Counted from the stretch's first letter, positions 2,150 to 22,662 are shown. The stretch: 26,617 nucleotides of DNA from a virus (IMGVR_UViG_3300038701_000785:1-26617); one strand, 5' to 3'. The notes: generated from the letters alone by a model not told the origin. Translations and numbers: made by a program.

Positions 2150-2337
2150 CAATTCCGTTTGAAAAACTAGCCGAACTGTCACACAGAAAGCGGCCAAGCC
2201 ACGTTAAGAAGTGGTGCCAAGATAAGGGTATCTTGTATATACTTGACGCCGACAATCGCCCCTGCACGACGAATGAGGCGCTCAACATGGCTATAATGCG
2301 GGGTCGCAAGACGGAACCCAACTGGCATATAGGATGA
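2146..2337 (+). CDS. DUF4224-like protein, integrase-associated (63 aa)
   Basis: Translation probably starts at TTG 2146, overlapping the previous stop (TTGA). The sequence IPFEKLAELSHRKRPSHVKK, followed by CQDKGILYILDADNRP, closely resembles the DUF4224 pattern, in which an ELAELTGxxRPSxQxxWL helix-turn-helix-like segment is followed by a short strand and an NxxGRP turn. Known members are small phage proteins encoded directly upstream of tyrosine integrases. Here the stop overlaps the integrase ATG by 4 bases. A role as a DNA-bending or excision accessory factor is a guess from context. Confidence 0.65.
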   Translation: MTIPFEKLAELSHRKRPSHVKKWCQDKGILYILDADNRPCTTNEALNMAIMRGRKTEPNWHIG

Positions 2338-3227
2338 GGCTACCACCCAAGGTACACCGCAAGGGTAAGTCCCTCTACTACGTCCACAAGAACAAATGGA
2401 CGCGGCTATGCCCCGCTGACGCCCCTGAAGAAGTGATAGTGGGTGAGGTCTGGAAGATCCTGCGCAAGGGCGTTGATACGCTCGACAAGGTTATTGACGA
2501 TTATATTGCCGTTAGGCTGGCAAAGCTTAAACCGAGCAGTCAGCGCGAGTATATGCGCTCGATAGACGCCAGAATCCGTAAGCACTTCGGGCACATGCAC
2601 CCTGACGATCTAACCAGTCAGGATATTGCCTGCTACCTGGAAATGCGGGAAAGGGACGGACACGCGGCCTGCGGCAATCGTGAGGTAGCCATTCTATCCA
2701 GCATCTACAACCACGGCATGAGGATAAGGGCCTGTAAGTTCAATCCCTGCTACGGGGTGCGCCGGAACACGGAGTCACCGCGAACCTACTACATAGACAA
2801 CGAGTCGCTGAGGCTGGCAATGCGTAGCGCCAATCCGGGATTACGTCACTTGATATGGGCGGCATACCTGACGGGATTCAGGCAGAAGGATCTTAGGAAC
2901 CTGACAAAGGACAACATCACGGCTGATGGTCTAAAGGTTATTCAGTCAAAGGATGGGAAGCACGAAATACGGCTTTGGTCGGAATCACTGAGGAAGGTTG
3001 TCAGAAGGGCATTGGAGCGGTCGAAGTGCAATTATGTGTTTACGAACGAACGTGGCCAGCACTTCAGTAAGGAGGCCGTGACAAGCGCCATGGGGCGGCT
3101 TAAGAAGGCGACGGGGATAGATTGGAGGTTCCACGATTTGAGGGCCAAGGCCGAATCAGACCACAAGACGGGCCTCGGCTTAATGCGCCGATACGCGAGG
3201 GCCAGAAAGCTAAGTGCGGTGAAGTAG
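2334..3227 (+). CDS. int: Tyrosine integrase
   Basis: This is a 297-residue site-specific recombinase. Residues 1-45 (KSLYYVHKNKWTRL) resemble the arm-binding N-terminal domain. Residues about 48-145 form the SAM-like core-binding domain, and about 150-297 the catalytic domain. Visible catalytic residues are Arg183 (TGFRQKDL), a Lys at 206 or 209, His267 and Arg270 (FHDLR), His277 and probably Tyr287 (MRRYARAR). Only six residues separate Arg270 from His277, clearly fewer than in lambda Int. The ATG overlaps the DUF4224 gene stop, and the stop codon directly abuts the first CTTAGAA repeat of attP. Thirteen of 35 Arg codons are AGG. It should integrate the phage into a host tRNA-Arg(CCU) gene. 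Confidence 0.93.
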   Translation: MRLPPKVHRKGKSLYYVHKNKWTRLCPADAPEEVIVGEVWKILRKGVDTLDKVIDDYIAVRLAKLKPSSQREYMRSIDARIRKHFGHMHPDDLTSQDIACYLEMRERDGHAACGNREVAILSSIYNHGMRIRACKFNPCYGVRRNTESPRTYYIDNESLRLAMRSANPGLRHLIWAAYLTGFRQKDLRNLTKDNITADGLKVIQSKDGKHEIRLWSESLRKVVRRALERSKCNYVFTNERGQHFSKEAVTSAMGRLKKATGIDWRFHDLRAKAESDHKTGLGLMRRYARARKLSAVK

Positions 3228-3410
3228 CTTAGAAAAACCCTTAGAATCCCTTAGAAAAATGAACGCTGCGCCCGTAGCTCAGTCGGATAGAGCACCAGAT
3301 TCCTAATTGGTTGCACAAGGCTTATGATTCAAAGACTTACGCGGAAATGGCTTAGAAATACATCAACATACGGTGGCTTAGGTATGCGATTTACCGGGCC
3401 TCACTTAGAA
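3228..3410 (+). other. attP: attP with integrase arm-type direct repeats
   Basis: The region between the integrase and the leftward operon holds a tRNA-derived core flanked by direct copies of CTTAGAA. Left copies are at 3228-3234, 3240-3246 and 3250-3256; right copies are at 3351-3357 and 3404-3410, with a CTTAGGT variant at 3377-3383. Weaker CTTA matches are at 3321 and 3336. All are on the + strand. Direct repeats on both sides of a core are the usual layout of arm sites bound by the N-terminal domain of tyrosine integrases. The core (CCAGATTCCTAATTGG, 3295-3310) covers the anticodon stem and loop. No terminator is seen after the integrase. Confidence 0.85.
3268..3307 (+). other. 5' half of tRNA-Arg(CCU) forming the att core
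   Basis: Bases 3268-3274 (GCGCCCG) form an acceptor 5' strand, 3277-3293 a D-arm (GCTC, loop, GAGC), 3295-3299 the anticodon 5' strand CCAGA, and 3300-3306 the loop TTCCTAA with anticodon CCT. The 3' anticodon strand should be TCTGG, but TTGG follows and there is no T-arm or acceptor 3' strand. The match ends within or just after the anticodon loop, which marks the likely crossover region. Most phages carry the 3' part of the target tRNA; this one carries the 5' part. Confidence 0.85.
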
Positions 3411-3415
3411 GCAAT

Positions 3416-3583
3416 TCACCCCACAAAAGACCGATCACTCATCAACTGAGTAATCTGCAATCGTAGTGCTTTGTTTTCCTCAAGTGCTTCGGCCAGTTCT
3501 TCTTCGAGTTCGTCAATCTGGGATGTCTTAGACTCTAGTTCGTCCTGCATCCACTCTATTGCTTCCCTTGAGATGGTGGCCAT
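3416..3583 (-). CDS. Coiled-coil microprotein (55 aa)
   Basis: The ATG at 3583 overlaps the metallophosphoesterase stop in a TAATG junction, and the TGA is at 3418-3416. The product begins MATISREAIEWMQDELESKT, and its middle (QIDELEEELAEALEENKAL) has heptad-spaced Leu and Ile, a clear short coiled coil. It is the last gene of the leftward operon and ends 6 bases from the last attP arm repeat. It probably oligomerises; its partner and role are unknown. Confidence 0.65.
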   Translation of the reverse strand: MATISREAIEWMQDELESKTSQIDELEEELAEALEENKALRLQITQLMSDRSFVG

Positions 3584-4338
3584 TAGAGGTACTTCCTCAG
3601 CAGGTAGTCCATGCTGATTTTCATGATGTCGTATTCACCGTCCCTGACATCATTCTTGACGACTACGCCCCGCCAGTGGTTATTACCCTGCGGTCCCTTG
3701 TAGTCCTCGTCGTGCATGTAGAAAGCACCAGCCACCAGTCCGTGCCTGCGCTTGCCGTTCGATACCTCAATCTCACCGTACTTGAATGACTGCGCGTGGC
3801 CCTGAGTGAACGACTGCCCCACGTTCTTGATGCGGGTTTCAATCATCCCGCCCCACGGGCGACCAGACATGGGATTGCAGAAGTAGTGGGCGTACAGTAT
3901 CCCGTCTATGTCTACGGGCTGTAGGAAGTCGTGAACCTTGAACCTGTCGAGGTTCAGCGTGTCGTAACCGATAATCCCCTCAAGTCTGGGGTCTTTCTGC
4001 CACAGCCTTTCCAGGTGGACCTCATGATTTCCCATGAGGAAGTGGCAATCTGGCTGGTACTGCTTTTTCTTCCAGCCCGCTACGGTCTTGTTTCGCTTAT
4101 CTACCGCACTCCAAAGCCGATTCATGGCCCTGTTGCCGGAGTTTATGTCGTCAAGAACCCGTAACTGTTCTTGGTCCATTGCGCTATTGAAATTGCTGGT
4201 CGCTGGCATATCCCACCAGTCCCCTGCAACGATAATCCTTTCAAAGCGCTTTTCTTCAATATAGTTGCCCAGAGCTTCGATATGGTCTGTGCAAACACCC
4301 TCTCTAACCTGTGTGTCTGGAATCCACAAATGTCTCAA
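3583..4338 (-). CDS. Calcineurin-like metallophosphoesterase
   Basis: The 251-residue protein carries the metallophosphoesterase motifs in order: PDTQ (Asp8), GDWWD (39-43), GNHE (103-106), an H at 151 and GHAQ (180-183). The usual second metal ligand of motif I (DxH) is Gln here; I recall the same DTQ form in other phage members of this group. It is probably a phosphodiesterase or phosphatase with a two-metal centre; the substrate is unknown. The start is TTG 4338, supported by AAGGTGA six bases upstream, inside the end of the preceding membrane-protein gene. Confidence 0.85.
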   Translation of the reverse strand: MRHLWIPDTQVREGVCTDHIEALGNYIEEKRFERIIVAGDWWDMPATSNFNSAMDQEQLRVLDDINSGNRAMNRLWSAVDKRNKTVAGWKKKQYQPDCHFLMGNHEVHLERLWQKDPRLEGIIGYDTLNLDRFKVHDFLQPVDIDGILYAHYFCNPMSGRPWGGMIETRIKNVGQSFTQGHAQSFKYGEIEVSNGKRRHGLVAGAFYMHDEDYKGPQGNNHWRGVVVKNDVRDGEYDIMKISMDYLLRKYL

Positions 4339-4528
4339 GGTTTATCACCTTTTCATCGCCCGTAGGCAGGAATCCCCCGGCCCTCTCTGATTTGTTGAGT
4401 TCGTATCGGCGTCCCTCGTTGAACATCATCTGGCCGTAGTTCGTGACGCTAACGATGAGATTGAACAGAATGACTGCGGTTATAATTGCTATTAGTATTG
4501 AGCGGCCAAGGGACTTGAGGATTTTCAT
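4304..4528 (-). CDS. Small single-pass membrane protein (74 aa)
   Basis: The product begins MKILKSLGRS and then has one strong hydrophobic segment of about 20 residues (ILIAIITAVILFNLIVSV, around residues 11-28), followed by a polar C-terminal domain. The basic N-terminus suggests N-in, C-out topology. The ATG overlaps the Ntn-hydrolase stop by 4 bases (ATGA), and its 3' end overlaps the metallophosphoesterase start by 35 bases, so translation is likely coupled. No family is recognised. It might anchor or partner one of its neighbours, but that is inferred only from context. Confidence 0.65.
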   Translation of the reverse strand: MKILKSLGRSILIAIITAVILFNLIVSVTNYGQMMFNEGRRYELNKSERAGGFLPTGDEKVINLETFVDSRHTG

Positions 4529-4944
4529 TCTAGTGTGTACTCCTTAACCGACCCGCCGCTGTTTTCGTCTACGCGAATTGCCATCTTTACGGCATCTTTT
4601 GCTGTAGCGCCCATGTGCATGGCCACCATCGCGGCTTGCTCACCGGACCCAATGGCAAAGTACCTCTCCCTTATAGGTAGTTCTCGCAGGTCACCATCCA
4701 CCAGGAACAGCCCACCCCTGCGGTGCACTAGAAACAGGACATCATCCTTGCTTGAGCAGCTCGGCCTATCCCTCGTCACGCCAGATAGCCACGCCGCAGC
4801 CTCATATGCCGCGATAGGATCACCGCAAAAACCCACGATGGCCTCCGGTCCAGCTATGACCTTTGTAGCGACGGACGAAATAAACCCCCCCGTCATTCGG
4901 GTATCACAGGCCATAACTCCATCTCGAAAGGCTACGGTAGTCAT
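4525..4944 (-). CDS. HslV/proteasome-beta-like Ntn hydrolase
   Basis: The 139-residue protein begins MTTVAFRDGVMACDTR. After removal of Met, Thr2 would be the N-terminal nucleophile; Asp14 and Lys28 (VATKVIA) sit where HslV and proteasome beta subunits have their conserved Asp and Lys. GFCGD (38-42) and FAIGSGEQAA (around 97-104) match the family's GxxG and AxGSG elements, and the final VDENSGGSVKEYTL resembles the last strand. HslV is about 175 residues, so this is a short form. No HslU-like ATPase is encoded in the window. It is the first gene of the leftward operon, downstream of a LexA-like box. Confidence 0.8.
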   Translation of the reverse strand: MTTVAFRDGVMACDTRMTGGFISSVATKVIAGPEAIVGFCGDPIAAYEAAAWLSGVTRDRPSCSSKDDVLFLVHRRGGLFLVDGDLRELPIRERYFAIGSGEQAAMVAMHMGATAKDAVKMAIRVDENSGGSVKEYTLE

Positions 4945-4993
4945 TTACATAGATCGTCCGTTAGAAACGGCTCTCGGGGCGTCTGAGAGCGAA

Positions 4994-5013
4994 TACTGTA
5001 TATGTCCACAGTG
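4994..5013 (-). promoter_or_regulatory. LexA-like operator
   Basis: The sequence TACTGTATATGTCCACAGTG contains an exact CTGT-N8-ACAG and matches the gammaproteobacterial SOS box (TACTGTATATATATACAGTA) at 16 of 20 positions. It lies about 50 bases upstream of the Ntn-hydrolase start in a region without protein genes. On the - strand, a TATACAGTAT stretch inside the box could contribute a -10 element, so a bound repressor would block initiation. No clear -35 was found, so the promoter itself is uncertain. Confidence 0.5.
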
Positions 5014-5103
5014 GTATTCTAGCGCCTAGTGGACTGAAATTAAGCCACCCGCAGCACTAATTTGGGGTTTGGGCGTGTTTTTAAGCTGTTGTTTACGACA
5101 CAA

Positions 5104-5177
5104 TGGTGCTCTCGTGCGGAATCGAACCGCATTCTCAGGCTTACAATGCCCGGCATCGCCAGCAATGCTTCAAGAGC
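5104..5177 (-). tRNA. tRNA-Thr(UGU)
   Basis: The - strand folds as a cloverleaf: acceptor GCTCTTG pairs with CGAGAGC (one G-U), D-stem GCAT/ATGC, anticodon stem CGGGC/GCCTG (one G-U) with loop ATTGTAA and anticodon TGT, variable loop AGAA, T-stem TGCGG/CCGCA with loop TTCGATT, then discriminator A and an encoded CCA. At 74 bases including CCA it is slightly short: there is no base 26, the usual T8 is A, and position 32 is A. It decodes ACA (Thr). It is unrelated to the tRNA half at attP and is probably a phage-borne translational supplement. Confidence 0.82.
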
Positions 5178-5198
5178 GGGTGTTCTATGGGCCGTCAG

Positions 5199-5355
5199 TT
5201 GTTCACTTTTTGACGCTGTACACGGATCATGTACAGGTCAGTTTTGTGAACAATCTGCGCAAAATATGCGGAGATTAGGGTTGTTATTCTCCGCAATCTG
5301 TGTCATTATTGGGTCCGTGGGGAAATCCACAATTCCTTGTTTCCGTCAGAAACAA
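5199..5355 (+). ncRNA. Candidate structured small RNA (inverted-repeat cluster)
   Basis: No protein gene is credible here, but inverted repeats follow one another. TTGTTCAC (5199-5206) pairs with GTGAACAA (5246-5253). Inside it, CTGTACA (5216-5222) pairs with TGTACAG (5230-5236). TGCGGAG (5267-5273) pairs with CTCCGCA (5289-5295). TTGTTTC (5337-5343) pairs with GAAACAA (5349-5355). A + strand intrinsic terminator follows at 5364-5398. Together they suggest a + strand transcript of about 200 bases, opposite in direction to the genes on either side. The first nested dyad could instead be a protein operator. No firm promoter was found. Confidence 0.4.
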
Positions 5356-5363
5356 AGATATGA

Positions 5364-5398
5364 GGGGCTGGCGCTGCTACGCTGGCCCCTTTTCTTTT
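5364..5398 (+). terminator. Rho-independent terminator, + strand
   Basis: GGGGCTGGCG (5364-5373) pairs along its full 10 bases with CGCTGGCCCC (5380-5389), including two G-U pairs, around a six-base loop, followed by TTTTCTTTT. The U tract is only good in the + direction; the other direction has a mixed tract, so it would be weaker there. No + strand protein gene ends here. Confidence 0.75.
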
Positions 5399-5427
5399 GG
5401 GGCGCCCATAAAATAGGTGGATTCGAC

Positions 5428-5691
5428 CTACTCAGTAGTGCAGCCGGATAGCGCCTCAAGGTCCAGAATGTGCTGCTTCAGTTTCAACTGGTTCTCGACA
5501 ATGATGGCCAGCGTGTGCGGTGGAATATCTACCTGTAGCTCTGCTGGGATTGGTTGCAGTTCAGGTCGAAGTGGGCACGGACCCTCATAGCCCACTATAG
5601 TGGTTGAACAAGCGGCTATATTGACCAAAATGACCACTAGAACGCTTAATTTCAAGCCGTTAATACCCCATTGGGGTATCTTGATACCCAT
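5428..5691 (-). CDS. Outer spanin-like lipoprotein (Rz1-like)
   Basis: From ATG 5691 the 87-residue product has a hydrophobic signal (LKLSVLVVILVNIAAC) ending in a Cys that fits a lipobox, followed by a Pro-containing periplasmic part (PCPLRPELQPIPAELQVDIPP) and a short helix. This is the layout of an Rz1-type outer-membrane spanin. A longer frame is open upstream to 5868, but it would place an Arg-rich stretch before the signal peptide and overlap the inner spanin, so the 5691 start is preferred. No obvious Shine-Dalgarno precedes it, and the start codon lies in alternating inverted repeats. It is the last gene of the late operon. Confidence 0.6.
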   Translation of the reverse strand: MGIKIPQWGINGLKLSVLVVILVNIAACSTTIVGYEGPCPLRPELQPIPAELQVDIPPHTLAIIVENQLKLKQHILDLEALSGCTTE

Positions 5692-6297: not shown

Positions 6298-6512
6298 TAC
6301 GTTGTCACCCCGTAACGGTTCACGTACCAGACCTGTGCGGCGAAAACCAAGGGTTGGGCAACGAACCCAACAATCTCGCCCGGCATCGGGTTCTCTGGGT
6401 GCAGCCAGTTATAGGTCAGCACAAAAGCATTCAGCGCGCCCGTAAGCGCCTGACCCAATAGAATGCGGCCACCAATAATGATAGGTGGTGCGTCGTCCCT
6501 GTTAATTTTCAC
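6297..6512 (-). CDS. Holin-like membrane protein (71 aa)
   Basis: The start is GTG 6512, overlapping the HNH gene stop (GTGA), with a GGAGG ribosome binding site that lies inside the last codons of the HNH gene. Two moderately hydrophobic stretches (IIIGGRILLGQALTGALNAF and EIVGFVAQPLVFAAQVWYV) separated by a polar turn suggest a two-pass membrane protein. Size, topology and position between the endolysin and spanin genes fit a small holin. I do not recognise a specific holin family. Confidence 0.55.
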   Translation of the reverse strand: MKINRDDAPPIIIGGRILLGQALTGALNAFVLTYNWLHPENPMPGEIVGFVAQPLVFAAQVWYVNRYGVTT

Positions 6513-7012
6513 GCTATGCCTCCGTAACGCCTGCTGTAGTGGTTGGACTTAATCTGATTTCGTATCGCAGGGATCACCTGCAAATTCCATGGAACATGCA
6601 GCCCGCGAACTCCGCGCCCCTTAATGGGGATAATGTGGTCAACATGGAACTGTGAACCAAGACAGGCAGATACGCGCTGTGCCTGCTCATAAAAACACCG
6701 CATGTCCTTTGGAGAGGTCCATGGCGGCATCTGGTTGCGCAGACTCCTTCTCCTGGAGTTGGTGTCTGCCCTCTTGGACTCCGGGTTGTTTTCGCGCCAG
6801 CGTTTCGATGCATTCCTGTATAGGTCCCGCTTCTCACGTCTTCGCTTTGCGTCGTATGCGCGCTTCCGATCTTTGTTTTCTTGATACCACCTTGATGCAA
6901 CAGCTATCGCACAGACCTTGCAGCGAGGCGCTAGACCGCCATGCCTCTTGCTTTTATGAAACTCTGGGCGCGGCTTTTCCTGCCGACATTCGCAGCATCG
7001 CTTCATCTTCAT
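6509..7012 (-). CDS. HNH endonuclease with N-terminal Cys cluster
   Basis: The 167-residue protein begins MKMKRCCECR and has a second Cys pair at 31-34 (CKVC), forming a likely zinc knuckle. A strongly basic helical linker follows, then an HNH nuclease core: FHVDHIIPI (His125 or 126 region) with Asn143 in VPWNLQVIPA. Such free-standing HNH genes often behave as homing endonucleases in phages. It interrupts the lysis cassette between endolysin and holin. The last 11 residues (NHYSRRYGGIA) almost repeat the last 11 of the upstream endolysin (NHYARRYGGIA). Confidence 0.85.
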   Translation of the reverse strand: MKMKRCCECRQEKPRPEFHKSKRHGGLAPRCKVCAIAVASRWYQENKDRKRAYDAKRRREKRDLYRNASKRWRENNPESKRADTNSRRRSLRNQMPPWTSPKDMRCFYEQAQRVSACLGSQFHVDHIIPIKGRGVRGLHVPWNLQVIPAIRNQIKSNHYSRRYGGIA

Positions 7013-7023
7013 GGTGATTTACC

Positions 7024-7380
7024 CTAGGCTATGCCGCCATATCGACGGGCGTAGTGATTTCCGTCTGGTGACCTGAAGCCTCCACCCCATACATTGTCTG
7101 GGTGTAGTGCCTCCCAATACTGACCAAAAGGCTCGTGTGCCTTTGTCGTGGTTTGGTACTGGAAGTCTTTGTAAAGGTTTAGGTCTATTGCTAGACGCTG
7201 CTTGTGGGCGCTCATAGGGCGCCCGTATGGTCCCTGCTCGCCCATCTTGCCGAACGCCCTTGGGTCGCGATAAGCGTCACCCAGAGTGCAGGTGTAGATA
7301 CCACCGTCATAGGCCCAGATATGCTGAATCAAGCAGGACACATGCCACGCAAATTCGCGCTGTGCGTCGCCTAGTCTCAT
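7024..7380 (-). CDS. M15-type peptidase endolysin
   Basis: The 118-residue enzyme carries the zinc-peptidase pattern SAHKQRLAIDLNLY (His59, Asp66) and GGGFRSPDGNHY (His109), the metal ligands of M15 D-Ala-D-Ala carboxypeptidase or L-Ala-D-Glu endopeptidase endolysins such as that of phage T5. It should cut the peptide cross-links of peptidoglycan. No signal peptide is seen, so export probably depends on a holin. The ATG lies two bases after the tailspike stop. Length is typical of the compact single-domain members. Confidence 0.85.
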   Translation of the reverse strand: MRLGDAQREFAWHVSCLIQHIWAYDGGIYTCTLGDAYRDPRAFGKMGEQGPYGRPMSAHKQRLAIDLNLYKDFQYQTTTKAHEPFGQYWEALHPDNVWGGGFRSPDGNHYARRYGGIA

Positions 7381-16630: not shown

Positions 16631-16956
16631 CAGAAATGCTCTTTCGCCATGATCTCAAGTTCAGCGGCTCGATGGTCGCGCCAGATAACCGAACGAATGT
16701 CATAGGTGTGACCATTCCACTTCGCACGATCACCAGCGGATAGGGTCTTTAGCGCCGGTCGGCTCCTGACAACAATCCGGTGGTCAATCTCGGACTGTTG
16801 CTGATTGGCTGAAAACATCTCCTTGCCACGCAATGGTTGAACCAGTGCATACGATGTGCAGATGTCAGACCATGACTTATCAGGTTCACCGAAGGCGTCG
16901 GCAGTGATCGTGGCGCGCTGGAATGTAACCCTGTGTCGGCGCTCGCCGATGCTCAC
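16630..16956 (-). CDS. Head-tail adaptor (Phage_H_T_join type)
   Basis: The 108-residue protein begins MSIGERRHRVTFQRATITAD and has AFGEPDKSWSDICTSYALVQ, then PLRGKEMFSANQQQSEIDHR. The sequence GxLRxRVxFQR, DxFGxPxxxW, V-x-P-x-x-G-x-E and an R-x-x-x-x-I-x-R strand identifies the SPP1 gp16 / Phage_H_T_join family of stoppers or adaptors that close the connector. It sits between the gp6-like connector and the gp10-like gene in conserved order and overlaps both neighbours. Confidence 0.85.
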   Translation of the reverse strand: MSIGERRHRVTFQRATITADAFGEPDKSWSDICTSYALVQPLRGKEMFSANQQQSEIDHRIVVRSRPALKTLSAGDRAKWNGHTYDIRSVIWRDHRAAELEIMAKEHF

Positions 16957-17540
16957 AGTCGCGGCGACCTGTAGGCAGAAACGACAGACTCAACCGCCTC
17001 GGGTGCCTTGGCGGCAGTCTCTCGGTTCTCGTAGTAATGCGTGGCCAGAACCATCGTTGCCATGTTCAACGGCTCCGGTACATTACTCTCACCAGCAACA
17101 AAACGAACAGTGATGGCGTTCGGTACGTTCCTGACATCGGGCCACGTCACATTATAGGACGGTACGATATAGCTGCCGTATCGACGTGAAACAAGCGTGT
17201 ATTGCGATGTTGCTAACGTTTGTGTTGCACCATCGGTGTCAACATAGGTGATCGAAAACACTTCCGGGGATGTGTCACCAATCGCCTTAACGGGGTTCAG
17301 CGGCAACGTGATGCGGGGCATCCCGCCCACTCTCGGCCAGCCGCAGTCAATTGAGTAATCCCATGTTTGTGACTTCATGCAGCGCCTTGTTTGACCCTCT
17401 ATCCATGTTCGAGCCGCAACAATGCAGGTGTAAATAAACGCATCATCGTGATTGTCGTCAGCGTCAATCCGCATGTGTTCTTTCTGCTCGTCAACCGTTA
17501 CAGGTTCTTCTGTCGGCTCAGTTACCAGTGATAGTGACAT
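16953..17540 (-). CDS. Head-tail connector (HK97 gp6-like)
   Basis: The 195-residue product starts at ATG 17540 with AGGGA six bases upstream. It begins MSLSLVTEPTEEPVTVDEQK, contains CIVAARTWIEGQTRRCMKSQ and ends TMVLATHYYENRETAAKAPE-like. The N-terminal pattern EPVTVxExKxHLRI followed by AARxxxExxTxR and the C-terminal ATHYYENRE helix are those of phage connector proteins that dock under the portal. It overlaps the glycosyltransferase-like gene by 23 bases, so the island genes feed directly into the connector operon. Confidence 0.88.
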   Translation of the reverse strand: MSLSLVTEPTEEPVTVDEQKEHMRIDADDNHDDAFIYTCIVAARTWIEGQTRRCMKSQTWDYSIDCGWPRVGGMPRITLPLNPVKAIGDTSPEVFSITYVDTDGATQTLATSQYTLVSRRYGSYIVPSYNVTWPDVRNVPNAITVRFVAGESNVPEPLNMATMVLATHYYENRETAAKAPEAVESVVSAYRSPRL

Positions 17541-18228
17541 TGGCGTCCCTTAATAGATTCCATGCGGTATCTATCTCATCCAGGTTAAATTGCTTGTAGC
17601 TCATTTCGTGCAGCCAGTCGGTGCGGTCGCCTCGGAACAGCTCAGAATCAATCGAGCCTGAGCAAACTGGCGCGCACTCGTTTTTCGGGTCAAGGCAAAT
17701 CGACGGAGTACCCGCCCTGATTGCCTCGAATATGCTCGTCCCTGATGTGCCTATCGCGACATCGTGTGAGCGAATGTCCCAGTTCAGGGTTCTGTTGGAT
17801 TTCTGCTCTGCTGGGTGTCGCCTGACACGAACGGAGTCAAACCGCTCTCTGGCTTTCGCCTCAATCTCTGATACGTCCTGCTGGTAGTCGGCAAGAATCA
17901 GGCATGAACGAACAACGTCCCACCAAGGGCCCATTTCAGGCTTTGGCCTTGGCTTAGAGCCAGCAGCGAATCGTCGCGTCTCGTCCGGTTGTCTCCAACC
18001 TATGGAAATGCAATGCGGATCGCCCCACCATGCCCGGTCAATCTCCAATACTCTCGGGTGATCTAACCAGTATGGCTTCGCGTAGTACGGCCCAGAGACA
18101 ACGTGTATATCGGCTGGCTCTCTTGGGTCCGTCGTCGCCTTAAACCCACATGCCTCAAACGCTCTCGCGTGATCGCACTGGTGCTTTAGGCTGGGGTTGT
18201 AGTGAATGACCTTGCGGAGCGCACCCAC
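17518..18228 (-). CDS. Glycosyltransferase-like protein (GT-B type)
   Basis: The GTG at 18228 is the likely start, 43 bases inside the previous gene; the true start is not certain. The 236-residue protein has PADIHVVSGPYYAKPYWLDH early and SHDVAIGTSGTSIFEAIRAG in the C-terminal half. The TSGTS-x-x-EAIRAGTP element resembles the donor-nucleotide-binding segment of GT-B enzymes and capsule-related transferases (TSxxxxEAxxxGxP). It is shorter than typical GT-B enzymes (350 residues or more), so it may be a minimal form. It probably acts with the other surface-modification genes of the island. Confidence 0.6.
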   Translation of the reverse strand: MGALRKVIHYNPSLKHQCDHARAFEACGFKATTDPREPADIHVVSGPYYAKPYWLDHPRVLEIDRAWWGDPHCISIGWRQPDETRRFAAGSKPRPKPEMGPWWDVVRSCLILADYQQDVSEIEAKARERFDSVRVRRHPAEQKSNRTLNWDIRSHDVAIGTSGTSIFEAIRAGTPSICLDPKNECAPVCSGSIDSELFRGDRTDWLHEMSYKQFNLDEIDTAWNLLRDANVTITGN

Positions 18229-18806
18229 TCGTCATTGACCTCATATGGATTCGGTTTACCGTGGAACACGGCGACCTTTGCCTTGTCGGGCAATCCTGAC
18301 TGACAGTGGTATTTGTAGCTCACTACATCCTCGGGATTGAAGTACTCGACTGAAAGCCGTTTTTCGTCTCGCAGTTGAGTAATCCATTCCTGATCGCCCC
18401 ACAAACAGCCATCATTCCTCGGTGGCCAGTGTGCAATCGCGGGGTCAAACTCGTCACTGATAAATCGGGTTCTATCACCTTCCCAATACATCACAGACGA
18501 CTGACAGCCACCGTAGCCAGACTGTGCCCAATTCTTGCATATGCGCAAATCGCTCGATAGCGGTGCTGTGAGGCCGTCCAGGGAGCCGGTGATAACTACG
18601 TCAAGGTCAAGCCAGAGATTCCGTGACCGACTGTTGGCAAATAATCTGGTTTTACCCCACCATCCCGGTAAGTCGCTCTCAGTGACACAAACAAACTCAT
18701 GCGGAAGGCTAAGATGCCTGTCCACCATGCGCTGTAATGTGTCGACCTCAGATTGTGGCGCGTGGCCGTTGGTGTTCATGCACCAGACGGTAATCAAAAT
18801 CGCCAC
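18186..18806 (-). CDS. Glycosyltransferase (GT-A, GT8-like)
   Basis: The 206-residue product starts at GTG 18806 and begins MAILITVWCMNTNG. It has LWLDLDVVITGSLDGL around residues 64-79, a DxD metal and nucleotide-sugar motif with the flanking hydrophobics usual in GT-A folds, then a CLWGDQEWI segment (an acidic DQ typical of GT8) and VFHGKPNPYEV near the C-terminus, like the His-Gly-x-x-Lys-Pro end of GT8 enzymes. It should transfer a sugar from a nucleotide donor; the acceptor is unknown. It overlaps the sulfotransferase-like gene by 13 bases. Confidence 0.72.
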   Translation of the reverse strand: MAILITVWCMNTNGHAPQSEVDTLQRMVDRHLSLPHEFVCVTESDLPGWWGKTRLFANSRSRNLWLDLDVVITGSLDGLTAPLSSDLRICKNWAQSGYGGCQSSVMYWEGDRTRFISDEFDPAIAHWPPRNDGCLWGDQEWITQLRDEKRLSVEYFNPEDVVSYKYHCQSGLPDKAKVAVFHGKPNPYEVNDEWVRSARSFTTTPA

Positions 18807-19393
18807 TTGTTCGGGTCTATCAGCTTATCAGCAATCTCCGGCTGGAACTCTATGTCGCAATAATTAAACGCCCATTCAAGGGTTGAGTAGTTCCCCGCAA
18901 TAACCTCGTCCGTGTGAACGATGGGGTAGGTCCTGCCAAGTTCCTCGGTATAGTCACTCAGTGAATTTACTATATATTCCGTACTCTCCCGGTTGCCGTG
19001 GCCCTTGGCTAAATTCGACTCAATCACACTCTGACGGTTTCGTAGAACAAATATGTGCTTCATGTCATCGAACAATCCATCGAATAGCGGGAAGTGCGTC
19101 ACACCGGACTTGTATACCCACCTCTTGTCTCTGGGCATGTCACGCAGGAATATGTCACGAGCATGTCTTTTCCCCGCGCTGTGATGAAACGACTTCATAC
19201 GTGTCTTGGGGTCGGCCCTAGAGATGTTGTTCACGGCCTCCCTGATGGTTAGGTGCTCATTGGTGCAGTAACCAAACGGGTTTTTCTTTTCAACCGGACC
19301 CACATAAAGTCCGTGGGCCCCGAATATCCCGGTTACCAGAGATGATCCTGATCTTGCTATGGTGTAAATAAATACCGGGCTTACAGCCTCCAT
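18794..19393 (-). CDS. Sulfotransferase-like protein
   Basis: From ATG 19393 (a GTG at 19408 is an alternative) the protein reads MEAVSPVFIYTIARSGSSLV. A hydrophobic strand followed by xxxRSGSSLV is the PAPS 5'-phosphosulfate-binding loop of sulfotransferases. The later MKHIFVLRNRQSVIESNLAK has the conserved strand-Arg-xx-x-x-x-Ser arrangement of the 3'-phosphate-binding motif. It should move sulfate from PAPS to a hydroxyl, plausibly on a glycan made by its neighbours. It overlaps the methyltransferase gene and the next gene by 13 bases each. Confidence 0.7.
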   Translation of the reverse strand: MEAVSPVFIYTIARSGSSLVTGIFGAHGLYVGPVEKKNPFGYCTNEHLTIREAVNNISRADPKTRMKSFHHSAGKRHARDIFLRDMPRDKRWVYKSGVTHFPLFDGLFDDMKHIFVLRNRQSVIESNLAKGHGNRESTEYIVNSLSDYTEELGRTYPIVHTDEVIAGNYSTLEWAFNYCDIEFQPEIADKLIDPNKWRF

Positions 19394-19920
19394 AGCGATA
19401 GCCTGCACCCCTTTGCGTGCCCATCAATTGTCGACTCCAGGGGCTCCCCAAGGTGACCCCTAAGATCCAGTCTTTGGAAGGCCCTATCCAGGTCGCTACC
19501 CTCGACAAAGTTTGTTGCAATCAGATAGTCAGCCGATTGTCGAAAATTGACAATGGAATCAATTACTCGCCCATGGTCGTCACCATCGACAAGGTGATTC
19601 AGAACCATACGACAGAGAATCGCGTCACAATTCGGCAAAACCTCGGTGGTGATGTCGATCTTTTCCACATCATCGCCGCGCGGAATCAGGTCAAACGGCC
19701 TGTAATCAACGGACCACTTGACGTCCCTTATCCAGTGAAGATCACCGGCACCAGCATCGCAAACGCTCTTTATTCCGTACTTGTCACAAACTACCGGAAG
19801 CCACTCTGACACGACGCGCGTGTGTTTCCGTGTACTACCCTGCCCGCAAATTGTTCCGTCTGGAATTCCACCGCGCCAACCCTTGGCCATGCGTGCATAC
19901 ATTTCTTCGTCAGAGAGCAT
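19381..19920 (-). CDS. SAM-dependent methyltransferase
   Basis: The 179-residue protein has VCDAGAGDLHWIRDV (residues about 53-67), the glycine-rich motif I of class I methyltransferases, an acidic end to strand 2 (YRPFDLIPRGDDVEKIDIT), and CDAILCRMVLNHLVDGD, the motif IV and post-IV strand-helix. The substrate is not evident. Members of this style are found beside glycosyltransferases in phage and bacterial surface-polysaccharide loci, so sugar O-methylation is a reasonable inference. It overlaps the upstream DUF115-like gene by 11 bases. Confidence 0.75.
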   Translation of the reverse strand: MLSDEEMYARMAKGWRGGIPDGTICGQGSTRKHTRVVSEWLPVVCDKYGIKSVCDAGAGDLHWIRDVKWSVDYRPFDLIPRGDDVEKIDITTEVLPNCDAILCRMVLNHLVDGDDHGRVIDSIVNFRQSADYLIATNFVEGSDLDRAFQRLDLRGHLGEPLESTIDGHAKGCRLSLWRL

Positions 19921-20527
19921 CTATTTCCATCCTGGGAAAACAGTCAATAGCACTGTCCGGTGTGCAGTTAATTACCTCAACCAGACCTTGCTTGTGAATT
20001 GAGCGGTATAACTCAACCAGCTCAACGTGAACCCCCCGAACGACACTGACCGATGGCCAATGCTGCATACTCGCTGGGTACTCTCCGAAATAATGCCTCG
20101 GACCAGAACCAACGTCCCTCGCCTTGCCGTCATAATCAGCGGCGTACTTGAGGTCGTAGCCCAGCAATAGAATCCTGTCAGCGCCTTCTCTGTGCGCCAT
20201 GCTCACCAAGGAATACCCGCTGCCGTGGCCGTGATGAATCACGTTAGGGTCTGTGGATAATCCTTGTTCATTCTTTTCGGCAATCCAGTTGATGCCAAAC
20301 TCAACCGATGCCCGCTTGTTCGTTGTCCACTTCTGGCAGGGAAGGTCTTTCACCTCCGGCCAGTAGTGCTTCCACCATTCGTAATTGCACCCGTACAGCA
20401 ATTCAGCGTCAGGCGCTAACTGATAGGCGTTGTTGCAGGCGTAAAGGGTAAATCCCTTGTCCCTTGCGGTATCAACCTGCTTTTGCGTAACGCTCGGACC
20501 CGTCGCAATGCAAACTATAGTCTTCAA
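19910..20527 (-). CDS. DUF115 / sialyltransferase-like protein, copy 2
   Basis: Start at TTG 20527 with GAGGA six bases upstream. The 205-residue product begins MKTIVCIATGPSVTQKQVDT, has AYQLAPDAELLYGCNYEWW, NVIHHGHGSGYSLVSMAHRE, ILLLGYDLKY and VINCTPDSAID. A strand ending in GPS, then a C-x-x-x-Y-x-L-x-P-x-A strand, then LxG(Y/F)D is the style of DUF115 and GT42 sialyltransferase-like folds; similar phage proteins are often called norphogenetic. It is clearly paralogous to the adjacent gene. Nucleotide-sugar chemistry is inferred, not shown. Confidence 0.6.
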   Translation of the reverse strand: MKTIVCIATGPSVTQKQVDTARDKGFTLYACNNAYQLAPDAELLYGCNYEWWKHYWPEVKDLPCQKWTTNKRASVEFGINWIAEKNEQGLSTDPNVIHHGHGSGYSLVSMAHREGADRILLLGYDLKYAADYDGKARDVGSGPRHYFGEYPASMQHWPSVSVVRGVHVELVELYRSIHKQGLVEVINCTPDSAIDCFPRMEIDAL

Positions 20528-21146
20528 CGGCGTCCTCGAACTCCATTATCGGGTACGTCTTAATCGCGCTGCCCGGTGTTGCGTTGACAATCGTCACGCC
20601 ATCAACGACAGGGAAATAACGAGCAAATGACTCGTATTCCTCGCGCTGGTGTAAGCCTCTCGGATGGTCACCAAAAAAATGCGACTTACCCGAAACAAAC
20701 TGCATATCGAACCCAACCAAAACGATGTACGGCGATCCCAGCAGCAGGGCCAGCCCCAAAGACTGAAATCCGCTGTTTCCGTGGTATCCGTAGTGGATAA
20801 CGCTCTGATCGGTCGAAAAATCGGACGCAGTAGCGCCCTTGACAAGGTTCAGGCCGTATTTATCAGCCGTTGCCATCTTGTCGTTTGAGGCTGAGTGCGT
20901 GTCATGTGTTGACCACCGCTCGCCCTCGAAATCCATGCACCCATTATGGGCGTCCCACCATCTTGCATCGCATCCGTACAACTTGTCTGCCCACGGCATC
21001 AGCCTGTAGGCATCCTGACAGGCAACGGTAGGCCAACCTATAGAACGGACAGCCTCAGCCAGTTCAGGCGTTAGACTTGGACCGGGTGCTGCGACTACGC
21101 TTGGACTTCTTAGCCACTCGCGCTTTATTCTCTGGAGCTGTGACAA
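20472..21146 (-). CDS. DUF115 / sialyltransferase-like protein, copy 1
   Basis: I place the start at TTG 21146, which has GGAGGAC six bases upstream; the TTG at 21179 lacks this. The product of about 224 residues contains SVVAAPGPSLTPELAEAVRS, ACQDAYRLMPWADKLYGCDA, SVIHYGYHGNSGFQSLGLAL, YIVLVGFDMQF and IVNATPGSAI. Each block aligns with one in the neighbouring gene, in the same order, so the two are tandem paralogues. It overlaps the small basic protein gene upstream by about 83 bases and the paralogue downstream by 56 bases. Confidence 0.6.
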   Translation of the reverse strand: MSQLQRIKREWLRSPSVVAAPGPSLTPELAEAVRSIGWPTVACQDAYRLMPWADKLYGCDARWWDAHNGCMDFEGERWSTHDTHSASNDKMATADKYGLNLVKGATASDFSTDQSVIHYGYHGNSGFQSLGLALLLGSPYIVLVGFDMQFVSGKSHFFGDHPRGLHQREEYESFARYFPVVDGVTIVNATPGSAIKTYPIMEFEDAVEDYSLHCDGSERYAKAG

Positions 21147-21309
21147 CCTTGTCCTCCGGCGCTTTCTTTTCAACAACAACCTCAGCCTTGCCGAACTTCA
21201 GTATCTTGGCTGCAAGGTCTTCCGGTACGTCATGTATGCCGGGGTCAAGCTGAATCACTGACCGTGGCCCAGACTGATAGTGGAATGCTCTCTTTAGTCG
21301 AATCTTCAT
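21064..21309 (-). CDS. Small basic protein downstream of capsid (81 aa)
   Basis: The N-terminal part (MKIRLKRAFHYQSGPRSVIQ, then DPGIHDVPEDLAAKILKFGK) looks like a compact beta-rich fold with the PGxxDVPxDLAxxxL pattern found in small phage proteins encoded after the capsid gene. The C-terminal 25 residues are Lys/Arg/Ser-rich (KARVAKKSKRSRSTRSKSN), possibly disordered and DNA-binding. It begins 18 bases after the terminator stem that follows the capsid gene. Function is unknown; a virion-associated role is plausible. Confidence 0.6.
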   Translation of the reverse strand: MKIRLKRAFHYQSGPRSVIQLDPGIHDVPEDLAAKILKFGKAEVVVEKKAPEDKVVTAPENKARVAKKSKRSRSTRSKSNA

Positions 21310-21369: not shown

Positions 21370-22662
21370 CTAGGTGTCAGCCAGCTTCAACAGTTTCAGA
21401 GCGTCGTTGTTAGCGACGATTCCACCGTATCGGCGGCGCACGTAGAACTTCGTGTAACCCGGATTGGTTACGTTGTCCCGCGTAATCGCCAGCTCGCGAC
21501 GATAGGCCAGCGTGTAGGCTCGCGCCCAGTCACCGAAACCGATGTAAAAACCATCAGCGGTGGTCGGGTCGGCCATATCTTCAAGGGTGAAGACCTCGTA
21601 ACCCAACAGACGATCCGGTTGACCCGCCTGGAGAGACGGCTGCCACAGATACTGGCCAGTCGTATCTTTCAGCTTGCGGAGTGCGCCCTGCGTTACCGTG
21701 TTGCAACCGAAGGATGCACCCGGACGGTAAGCACGGTTCAGTGAGTAGACCAAATCAATGATATCGTCCGCACTCATAGACTGCGGCGAATTGGTGTCGG
21801 TCGGAACATACTGAACAGCAGCGGGGTCTCGAAGGGGCGATGTGTGGTCGGCGGTTGCTGCGGGGGCGGTGTTGATGATGCCGGTTGGCTTGTTTGAGCC
21901 GTTGCCAGACCAGATGGCTAGGTCAAGATTCTTTCGCATACCATCGGCAATATCATTAACCAGCCAGTTTTCGACGTTGAAGAAAACATCCTCCAAAGAC
22001 CAATCACTCGCCTGCGGATAAGCGTACAACTCGCCCCAAGTCGGTGCGACCTGACGCAGATCGGGTGTGCCAGTCGCGCTGCGCGTTCCCGTCTCACCAA
22101 CCCAGCCAGAGTTACCGCCATGAATCGAGATAAGCTCTTTATAGTCGCTCGTGCCAACCTGAACGGTCTTAACCTTGTTCAGGATATCGGACTGCTTCAG
22201 GAGCAGCGCATCAACGGCGCGAGAGATTTCCTCGGGAACCGCATGACCGCCATCTGACGCAGTGCCAATCACAACGTCCTTGAACTCGCGAGCCTTAACG
22301 CGAAGATCTTTCATCTTCTGCTCTGACTCACGATCAGTACCGCCTGATCGCATCCACGATATAAATGCGTCTTTGTGTTCGTTGCGAATCTTGTCTTCAA
22401 TCGTGCCCTTCGGACGATCATTCATAGATTCAACGATTTCAAGGCGCTCCTGGAGGATCGCTTCTTTGCGCTCGGCTTCTTTCTTCGCCTTTTCGTACTT
22501 GGCGATATCTGACTCGATGCGGTCCATTTTTTCTGCAAGCTCACGAGCCTTCGCTTCGTTGCCCTTGCTCTCAGCTTCAAGTCGCTGGTCGTTCGTTGTT
22601 TTGAATTCTTCAAAGGCGCTGTTAATGCCCTCGATAGCCTTCATGATTGGAGATTCACTCAT
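21370..22662 (-). CDS. HK97-type major capsid protein
   Basis: The 430-residue protein begins MSESPIMKAIEGINSAFEEF and has about 110 residues of predicted coiled coil (KMDRIESDIAKYEKAKKEAE), the scaffold-like delta domain removed by the prohead protease. The mature fold follows, with GTASDGGHAVPEEISRAVDA at the likely cleavage/N-arm region, the peptide-like DIADGMRKNLDLAIWSGNGS block, and a C-terminal KFYVRRRYGGIVANNDALKL as in other HK97 capsids. It forms the icosahedral shell. It is bracketed by hairpin elements on both sides, unlike its overlapping neighbours. Confidence 0.92.
   Translation of the reverse strand: MSESPIMKAIEGINSAFEEFKTTNDQRLEAESKGNEAKARELAEKMDRIESDIAKYEKAKKEAERKEAILQERLEIVESMNDRPKGTIEDKIRNEHKDAFISWMRSGGTDRESEQKMKDLRVKAREFKDVVIGTASDGGHAVPEEISRAVDALLLKQSDILNKVKTVQVGTSDYKELISIHGGNSGWVGETGTRSATGTPDLRQVAPTWGELYAYPQASDWSLEDVFFNVENWLVNDIADGMRKNLDLAIWSGNGSNKPTGIINTAPAATADHTSPLRDPAAVQYVPTDTNSPQSMSADDIIDLVYSLNRAYRPGASFGCNTVTQGALRKLKDTTGQYLWQPSLQAGQPDRLLGYEVFTLEDMADPTTADGFYIGFGDWARAYTLAYRRELAITRDNVTNPGYTKFYVRRRYGGIVANNDALKLLKLADT

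Follow-up and report, generated by a model that had tools for sequence, protein, structure and literature searches.

We consider it fairly likely that six genes of a phage sequence, lying between the capsid side and the head-tail connector gene, form a modular cassette that would use host donors to glycosylate virion proteins in the cytoplasm. Similar genes are found at the same spot in many unrelated uncultured phages, which suggests, at the level of gene content, that phages may often coat their own particles with glycans. As far as the sequence goes, both the virion and the host surface are possible targets. A sequence-only reading had described a late glycan-building set placed in an interval that normally holds little or nothing. 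Profiles, folds and a strong genomic association with the capsid and connector genes speak for such an enzyme set; whereas the premise of an empty interval did not survive comparison with other phages.

Organization of the cassette and its flanks

The window (the whole stretch of DNA analysed, 26.6 kb) is a linear virus record from IMG/VR (IMGVR_UViG_3300038701_000785:1-26617). The head genes are on the minus strand, in the order terminase, portal, protease, capsid, small protein, six extra genes and connector, followed by head closure, HK97 gp10, tail terminator and tail tube. The cassette consists of six minus-strand ORFs (17518-21146), and both their position and the overlap at each junction, as first described, were found again in the window. 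They encode two MptE-like/DUF115 proteins (D115a and D115b), a methyltransferase (MT), a sulfotransferase (ST), a GT-A transferase (GTA) and a GT-B-like transferase (GTB). The overlaps from the first start codons are 56 (D115a/D115b), 11 (D115b/MT), 28 (MT/ST), 13 (ST/GTA), 43 (GTA/GTB) and 23 bases (GTB/connector), and D115a shares 83 bases with the small post-capsid gene; these lengths hinge on the choice of start codon, and five of the six cassette genes have TTG or GTG starts.

The left border of the slot is the small post-capsid gene (21064-21309, minus strand), which is STY1053-like by a weak NCBIfam match (0.0014) and encodes a protein with a basic Ser/Lys-rich tail. A small gene follows the capsid gene in relatives both with and without the cassette. 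The HK97-type major capsid protein (21370-22662, minus strand) matched Pfam Phage_capsid (6e-63) and PHROG 10 (6e-70). The right border is the gp6-like head-tail connector gene (16953-17540, minus strand; Phage_connect_1, 3e-8; PHROG 442, 5e-22). The GC content and the third-position GC of the cassette genes match those of the head genes, and therefore the composition indicates no recent foreign insert. The same genes occur in nearly the same order in relatives, which together with the dN/dS values of relative pairs (0.03 for GTA and 0.16-0.48 for D115) shows that these ORFs are not a random assortment. Purifying selection on the cassette genes is clear.

A strong terminator-like hairpin with a T-rich tail (21347-21328, minus strand; scan and fold, z -3.15) separates the capsid gene from the small gene and the cassette, and another (22701-22681, minus strand; scan and fold) precedes the capsid gene. 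These hairpins are pattern matches only, and such matches are not more numerous in the region (13) than in shuffled sequences (10.5 plus or minus 3.5). Since they flank the capsid gene, it is not certain that this gene and the cassette are transcribed evenly together, and the cassette may be expressed below the capsid level. A third hairpin (15671-15654, minus strand) precedes the tail-tube gene; from this placement, the two most abundant virion proteins would seem to have separate transcript levels.

Family and fold assignments of the six enzymes

The six enzyme assignments of the sequence-only reading all hold at the family or fold level according to profiles, folds and motifs. It had also proposed a structural search, and the D115a and GTB models and the D115 and GTA profiles, compared with the PDB, gave folds consistent with the assignments. 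The first cassette gene, D115a (20472-21146, minus strand; TTG start at 21146), encodes a GT42-like member of PHROG 4603 (6e-32); the paralogue D115b (19910-20527, minus strand; PHROG 4603, 1e-30) is about 31% identical to it (alignment A1). Both missed the Pfam cut-off of PF01973 (34.6 bits), with 14.6 bits for D115a and 16.4 for D115b, and the best relative reached 33.9; the family was matched by 12 of the 13 members of alignment A6 (best E 3e-8). The 13-member A6 profile retrieved nine PDB matches up to E 1, all of which are GT42 sialyltransferases (best E 0.003). The AF2 model of D115a (pLDDT 84) is closest to MptE (8sd5; E 1e-4, prob 1.00), a pterin pyrophosphokinase that belongs to the same Pfam family. 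The fold and family of the D115 proteins are thus secure; whereas their transferase chemistry is not certain, given that, among solved structures, D115a most resembles a pyrophosphokinase. H156 is nearly invariant among the D115 proteins, and the alignment with CstII leaves the catalytic base unfixed.

MT (19381-19920, minus strand; PHROG 3382, 2e-17) is a SAM-dependent methyltransferase with an invariant DxGAGDLxW motif (alignment A8). ST (18794-19408, minus strand) contains a 5' PAPS-loop (ARSGSSLV) and a 3'-phosphate-like motif (VLRNRQSVIES), and its Pfam Sulfotransfer_3 match was below the cut-off (18 bits versus 27; E 0.0036). The homologue in contig L026 (3985-4578) has a similar Sulfotransfer_3 E value and retains the RSGSSLV loop. 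The sulfotransferase of contig L022 belongs to another subfamily, Sulfotransfer_2, and passes the cut-off (24.3 bits versus 22).

GTA (18186-18806, minus strand; PHROG 1962, 4e-17) is a GT8-like GT-A transferase, of which the DxD residues D67 and D69 are invariant (alignment A7). A Pfam search with GTA alone gave no GT8 match. With the A7 profile, all 20 PDB matches were GT8-type (glycosyl transferase family 8, glycogenin and LgtC; best 3e-4). GTB (17518-18228, minus strand) had no match in family searches with the single protein, and was assigned to the Capsule_synth/KpsC-WbbB kind from its AF2 model (pLDDT 86) and Foldseek. The KpsC and WbbB matches had probabilities mostly of 0.92-0.99 and E values of about 2e-3 to 2e-2, and the GTB fold matches have low TM-scores (0.33-0.51) with E values near 1e-3; the TM-scores with viral 'capsule polysaccharide biosynthesis' proteins were 0.6-0.7 (Foldseek). 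A GTB relative in contig L030 matched DUF6716 (8e-5) and, below the cut-off, Capsule_synth (0.0014; 18.6 bits versus 20). KpsC and WbbB, the nearest folds to GTB, are beta-Kdo transferases.

Recurrence and modularity of the capsid-connector slot

A search of the viral contigs with the single D115a protein gave no match; whereas the D115a profile scan of the viral contigs (IMG/VR) revealed at least 529 relatives, of which 80 were kept and 65 remained after clustering at 90% identity. Among these 65 non-redundant relatives, 57 are located between the capsid or portal gene and the connector or head closure gene, the capsid gene is the next upstream marker in 43 (median gap 238 b), and a further cassette enzyme lies within 9 kb in 49; because the loci were picked for their resemblance to the D115a of the window, the sample is biased towards the same slot, and the fractions hold for that subfamily. 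A P1-led profile was dropped as a basis for counting, as it returned almost solely P1 copies. The 57 loci, together with the D3-type DUF115 gene at the same place, mean that an interval normally holding little or nothing fails as a general rule. In the relatives L004-L013, which we take from their sequences to be Acinetobacter-type, the slot is empty and the connector directly follows the small gene (capsid 35-40% identical).

The comparison of island content at the same site in related phages, which had been suggested as a check, showed that similar genes recur there. The D115-MT-GTA-GTB set is present in the slot of at least nine other contigs (L022, L025, L026, L031, L035, L036, L119, L147, L171 and L184), whose capsids have 23% or no detectable identity to that of the window, where compared; the slot of Psp6 holds a DUF115-GT-MT trio. 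In the metagenomic contig L022 the order is D115a, D115b, sulfotransferase, MT, GTA, GTB and connector. Its GTA and GTB are 64-69% and 53-55% identical to those of the window; whereas the portal, terminase and tail tube share 24-35% and the capsid has no BLAST match. L022 also has an in-frame fusion of the small post-capsid protein and D115a (4908-5678), seen in this contig only and therefore given little weight.

The similarity of the cassette and that of the backbone disagree across contigs. The capsid of L024 is the closest to that of the window (59%), yet its D115 genes are of the L022 type (51-52% versus 31-34%), and its cassette, which includes a GT8 enzyme and different methyltransferases, lies on the far side of the connector. 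The terminase of L025 is of the window type (62%); whereas its portal and capsid are of the L022 type. The sulfotransferase subfamily differs between L022 and the window with L026, and elsewhere radical SAM, GT8 or FkbM genes accompany the sulfotransferase or take its place. In L026 a radical SAM-SPASM enzyme (3027-3992) within the cassette adjoins the sulfotransferase homologue. The GTA proteins of L025 and L026 are 95% identical; a recent transfer was ruled out by their dS of 0.71, which points to strong purifying selection. Non-enzymatic genes are found inside or beside the cassettes of L025 (5866-6303), L026 (955-1647) and L035 (4103-4942), two of which are homologous. Family searches with these three genes indicated no function; their products are perhaps decoration proteins and candidate acceptors.

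The variation of radical SAM, FkbM and other enzymes between cassettes would also fit another cytoplasmic target, for instance a host protein or small molecule, with the slot being merely a tolerated cargo site. The pyrophosphokinase fold closest to D115a and the occurrence of D115-type genes elsewhere in P1 and CcrSC point the same way, and the distant homologues in P1, CcrSC and phiNP are outside the head operon. However, the capsid-side position is consistent and several carbohydrate-active folds co-occur, and we regard this explanation as rather improbable.

Several known phages show partial similarities to the window. Pseudomonas phage D3 (P. aeruginosa) and its kin (D3, PMG1 and PP9W2) have a DUF115-type gene in the exact slot, overlapping the connector gene; in D3 this is orf7, annotated as 'alpha-2,3-sialyltransferase', between orf6.5 and the connector orf9. 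A GT-like gene and a methyltransferase gene are found a few genes downstream of the slot. Unlike the window, these phages have a single DUF115 gene in the slot and a GT9-like partner after the head closure gene, and have neither a sulfotransferase nor GTB. In P1, the late genes pmgO-pmgP-ppp-pmgQ form one cluster, in which pmgO is the D115 homologue, pmgQ the GTA homologue, and pmgP a further DUF115-like paralogue by motif. Unlike the window's genes, the pmg genes are away from the capsid genes and accompanied by a phosphatase, without MT, ST or GTB. Tetraselmis viridis virus S20 carries a nine-gene island of GT, methyltransferase and DUF115 genes between capsid and head closure, including D115 and GTA homologues; its gene content is otherwise different, with no detectable GTB or ST homologue.

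No description of the capsid-connector slot with a modular cassette was found in the literature searched, which covered few subscription papers. Both therefore appear new to that literature; whereas virion glycosylation itself is known in mycobacteriophages, whose glycosylation enzymes and gene position differ from those of the window's cassette. In those phages, phage-encoded glycosyltransferases decorate the capsid and tail tube, which bear glycans (Freeman 2023, cited in PMC12619734), and the chemistry was shown there.

Donors, acceptors and competing targets

In the proposed glycosylation of virion proteins, the cassette enzymes would be produced in the cytoplasm at a late stage. Drawing on host nucleotide sugars, the DUF115/GT42-like and GT-A/GT-B enzymes would assemble a short glycan on a virion protein, and the acceptor might be the capsid, the small post-capsid protein, the connector or the tail tube. 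The methyltransferase and sulfotransferase might then cap the glycan. For the D115 and GT-B enzymes, the best candidate donor would be a CMP-linked ulosonic acid such as CMP-Kdo, because GT42 and KpsC/WbbB both use such donors. No CMP-sugar synthetase was found in 19 longer related records, the completeness of which is uncertain, and so the donors would come from the host. Maf proteins are protein O-glycosyltransferases of the DUF115 family. One of them was reported to accept Neu5Ac and Kdo (PMC11339370). The coat could serve for masking from receptors, antibodies or depolymerases, or for binding to surfaces. P1 can grow lytically without pmgO, pmgP and pmgQ (PMC10695390), which fits a decorative role. 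Points against this reading are the uncertain chemistry of D115a, the low TM-scores of GTB, the distant homologues outside the head operon, and the hairpins that suggest less cassette product than capsid.

The same enzyme families might instead alter the host envelope late in infection, acting on lipooligosaccharide, O-antigen or capsule precursors at the cytoplasmic face and thereby limiting superinfection or the loss of progeny on debris. The names of the solved structures indicate that, in bacteria, GT8 enzymes and those resembling KpsC/WbbB work on LPS and capsule, and that GT42 CstII-type enzymes work on lipooligosaccharide. An integrase-like ORF (2334-3227; tyrosine type, by eye) suggests that the phage of the window is temperate, and integrases are present in nine of 19 related records; a temperate lifestyle speaks for envelope modification. 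However, conversion genes are usually apart from late genes; whereas the cassette genes sit among structural genes. The six cassette proteins contain no long hydrophobic stretch of the kind seen in membrane proteins, and GtrA was present in none of the 19 related records (completeness uncertain), both of which argue against a gtr-type seroconversion cluster. Pattern-limited GTA and GTB profile scans of the genomes of 84,980 bacterial and archaeal species also found no relative. A change of the host envelope is therefore unlikely in our view; the lack of membrane segments and of GtrA-type flippases in these proteins and records makes a cytosolic target, for instance virion proteins, more likely.

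Glycosylation of the phage DNA against restriction was also considered, as phage glycosyltransferases commonly modify DNA (Pyle 2024 and others, cited in PMC12619734). No hydroxymethylase of the thymidylate-synthase type was found in the 19 related records (possibly incomplete), the cassette is in the head operon away from replication genes, and a sulfotransferase and KpsC-like enzymes would be unusual for DNA hypermodification, which is very improbable here.

Virion glycosylation might extend to a broader proposal, which is tentative and seems to us possible rather than probable: tailed phages would keep the capsid-connector locus for interchangeable glycan cassettes, as a capsid counterpart of the bacterial O-antigen loci. 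Host CMP-Kdo or related ulosonic acids would be placed on the head and then extended, methylated or sulfated, and the resulting phage 'serotypes' would change independently of the backbone. If this is true, mycobacteriophages would not be peculiar in having glycan-coated heads, which would be common in uncultured and in some cultured phages. The glycan genes would be found in a predictable place, D3-type phages and P1 would allow a direct test of virion glycosylation, and hundreds of genes labelled 'sialyltransferase' or 'hypothetical' could be annotated by a rule. The proposal would also bear on how phages adsorb, on their recognition by antibodies and on their mosaic evolution.

Other features were observed in the window. 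An HNH-endonuclease-like gene (6509-7012, minus strand) and the adjacent peptidase/endolysin-like gene (7024-7380, minus strand) encode nearly the same end peptide (NHYxRRYGGIA) with different DNA; the former is possibly an inserted homing endonuclease gene that mimics the end of its neighbour. A tRNA-Thr was called by ARAGORN (5104-5177, minus strand), with no Rfam tRNA at the gathering score, and may be a degenerate or attachment-site copy. A small protein (4525-4944, minus strand) resembles, by eye, a proteasome-type Ntn hydrolase, and is encoded beside a metallophosphoesterase-like ORF (3583-4338).
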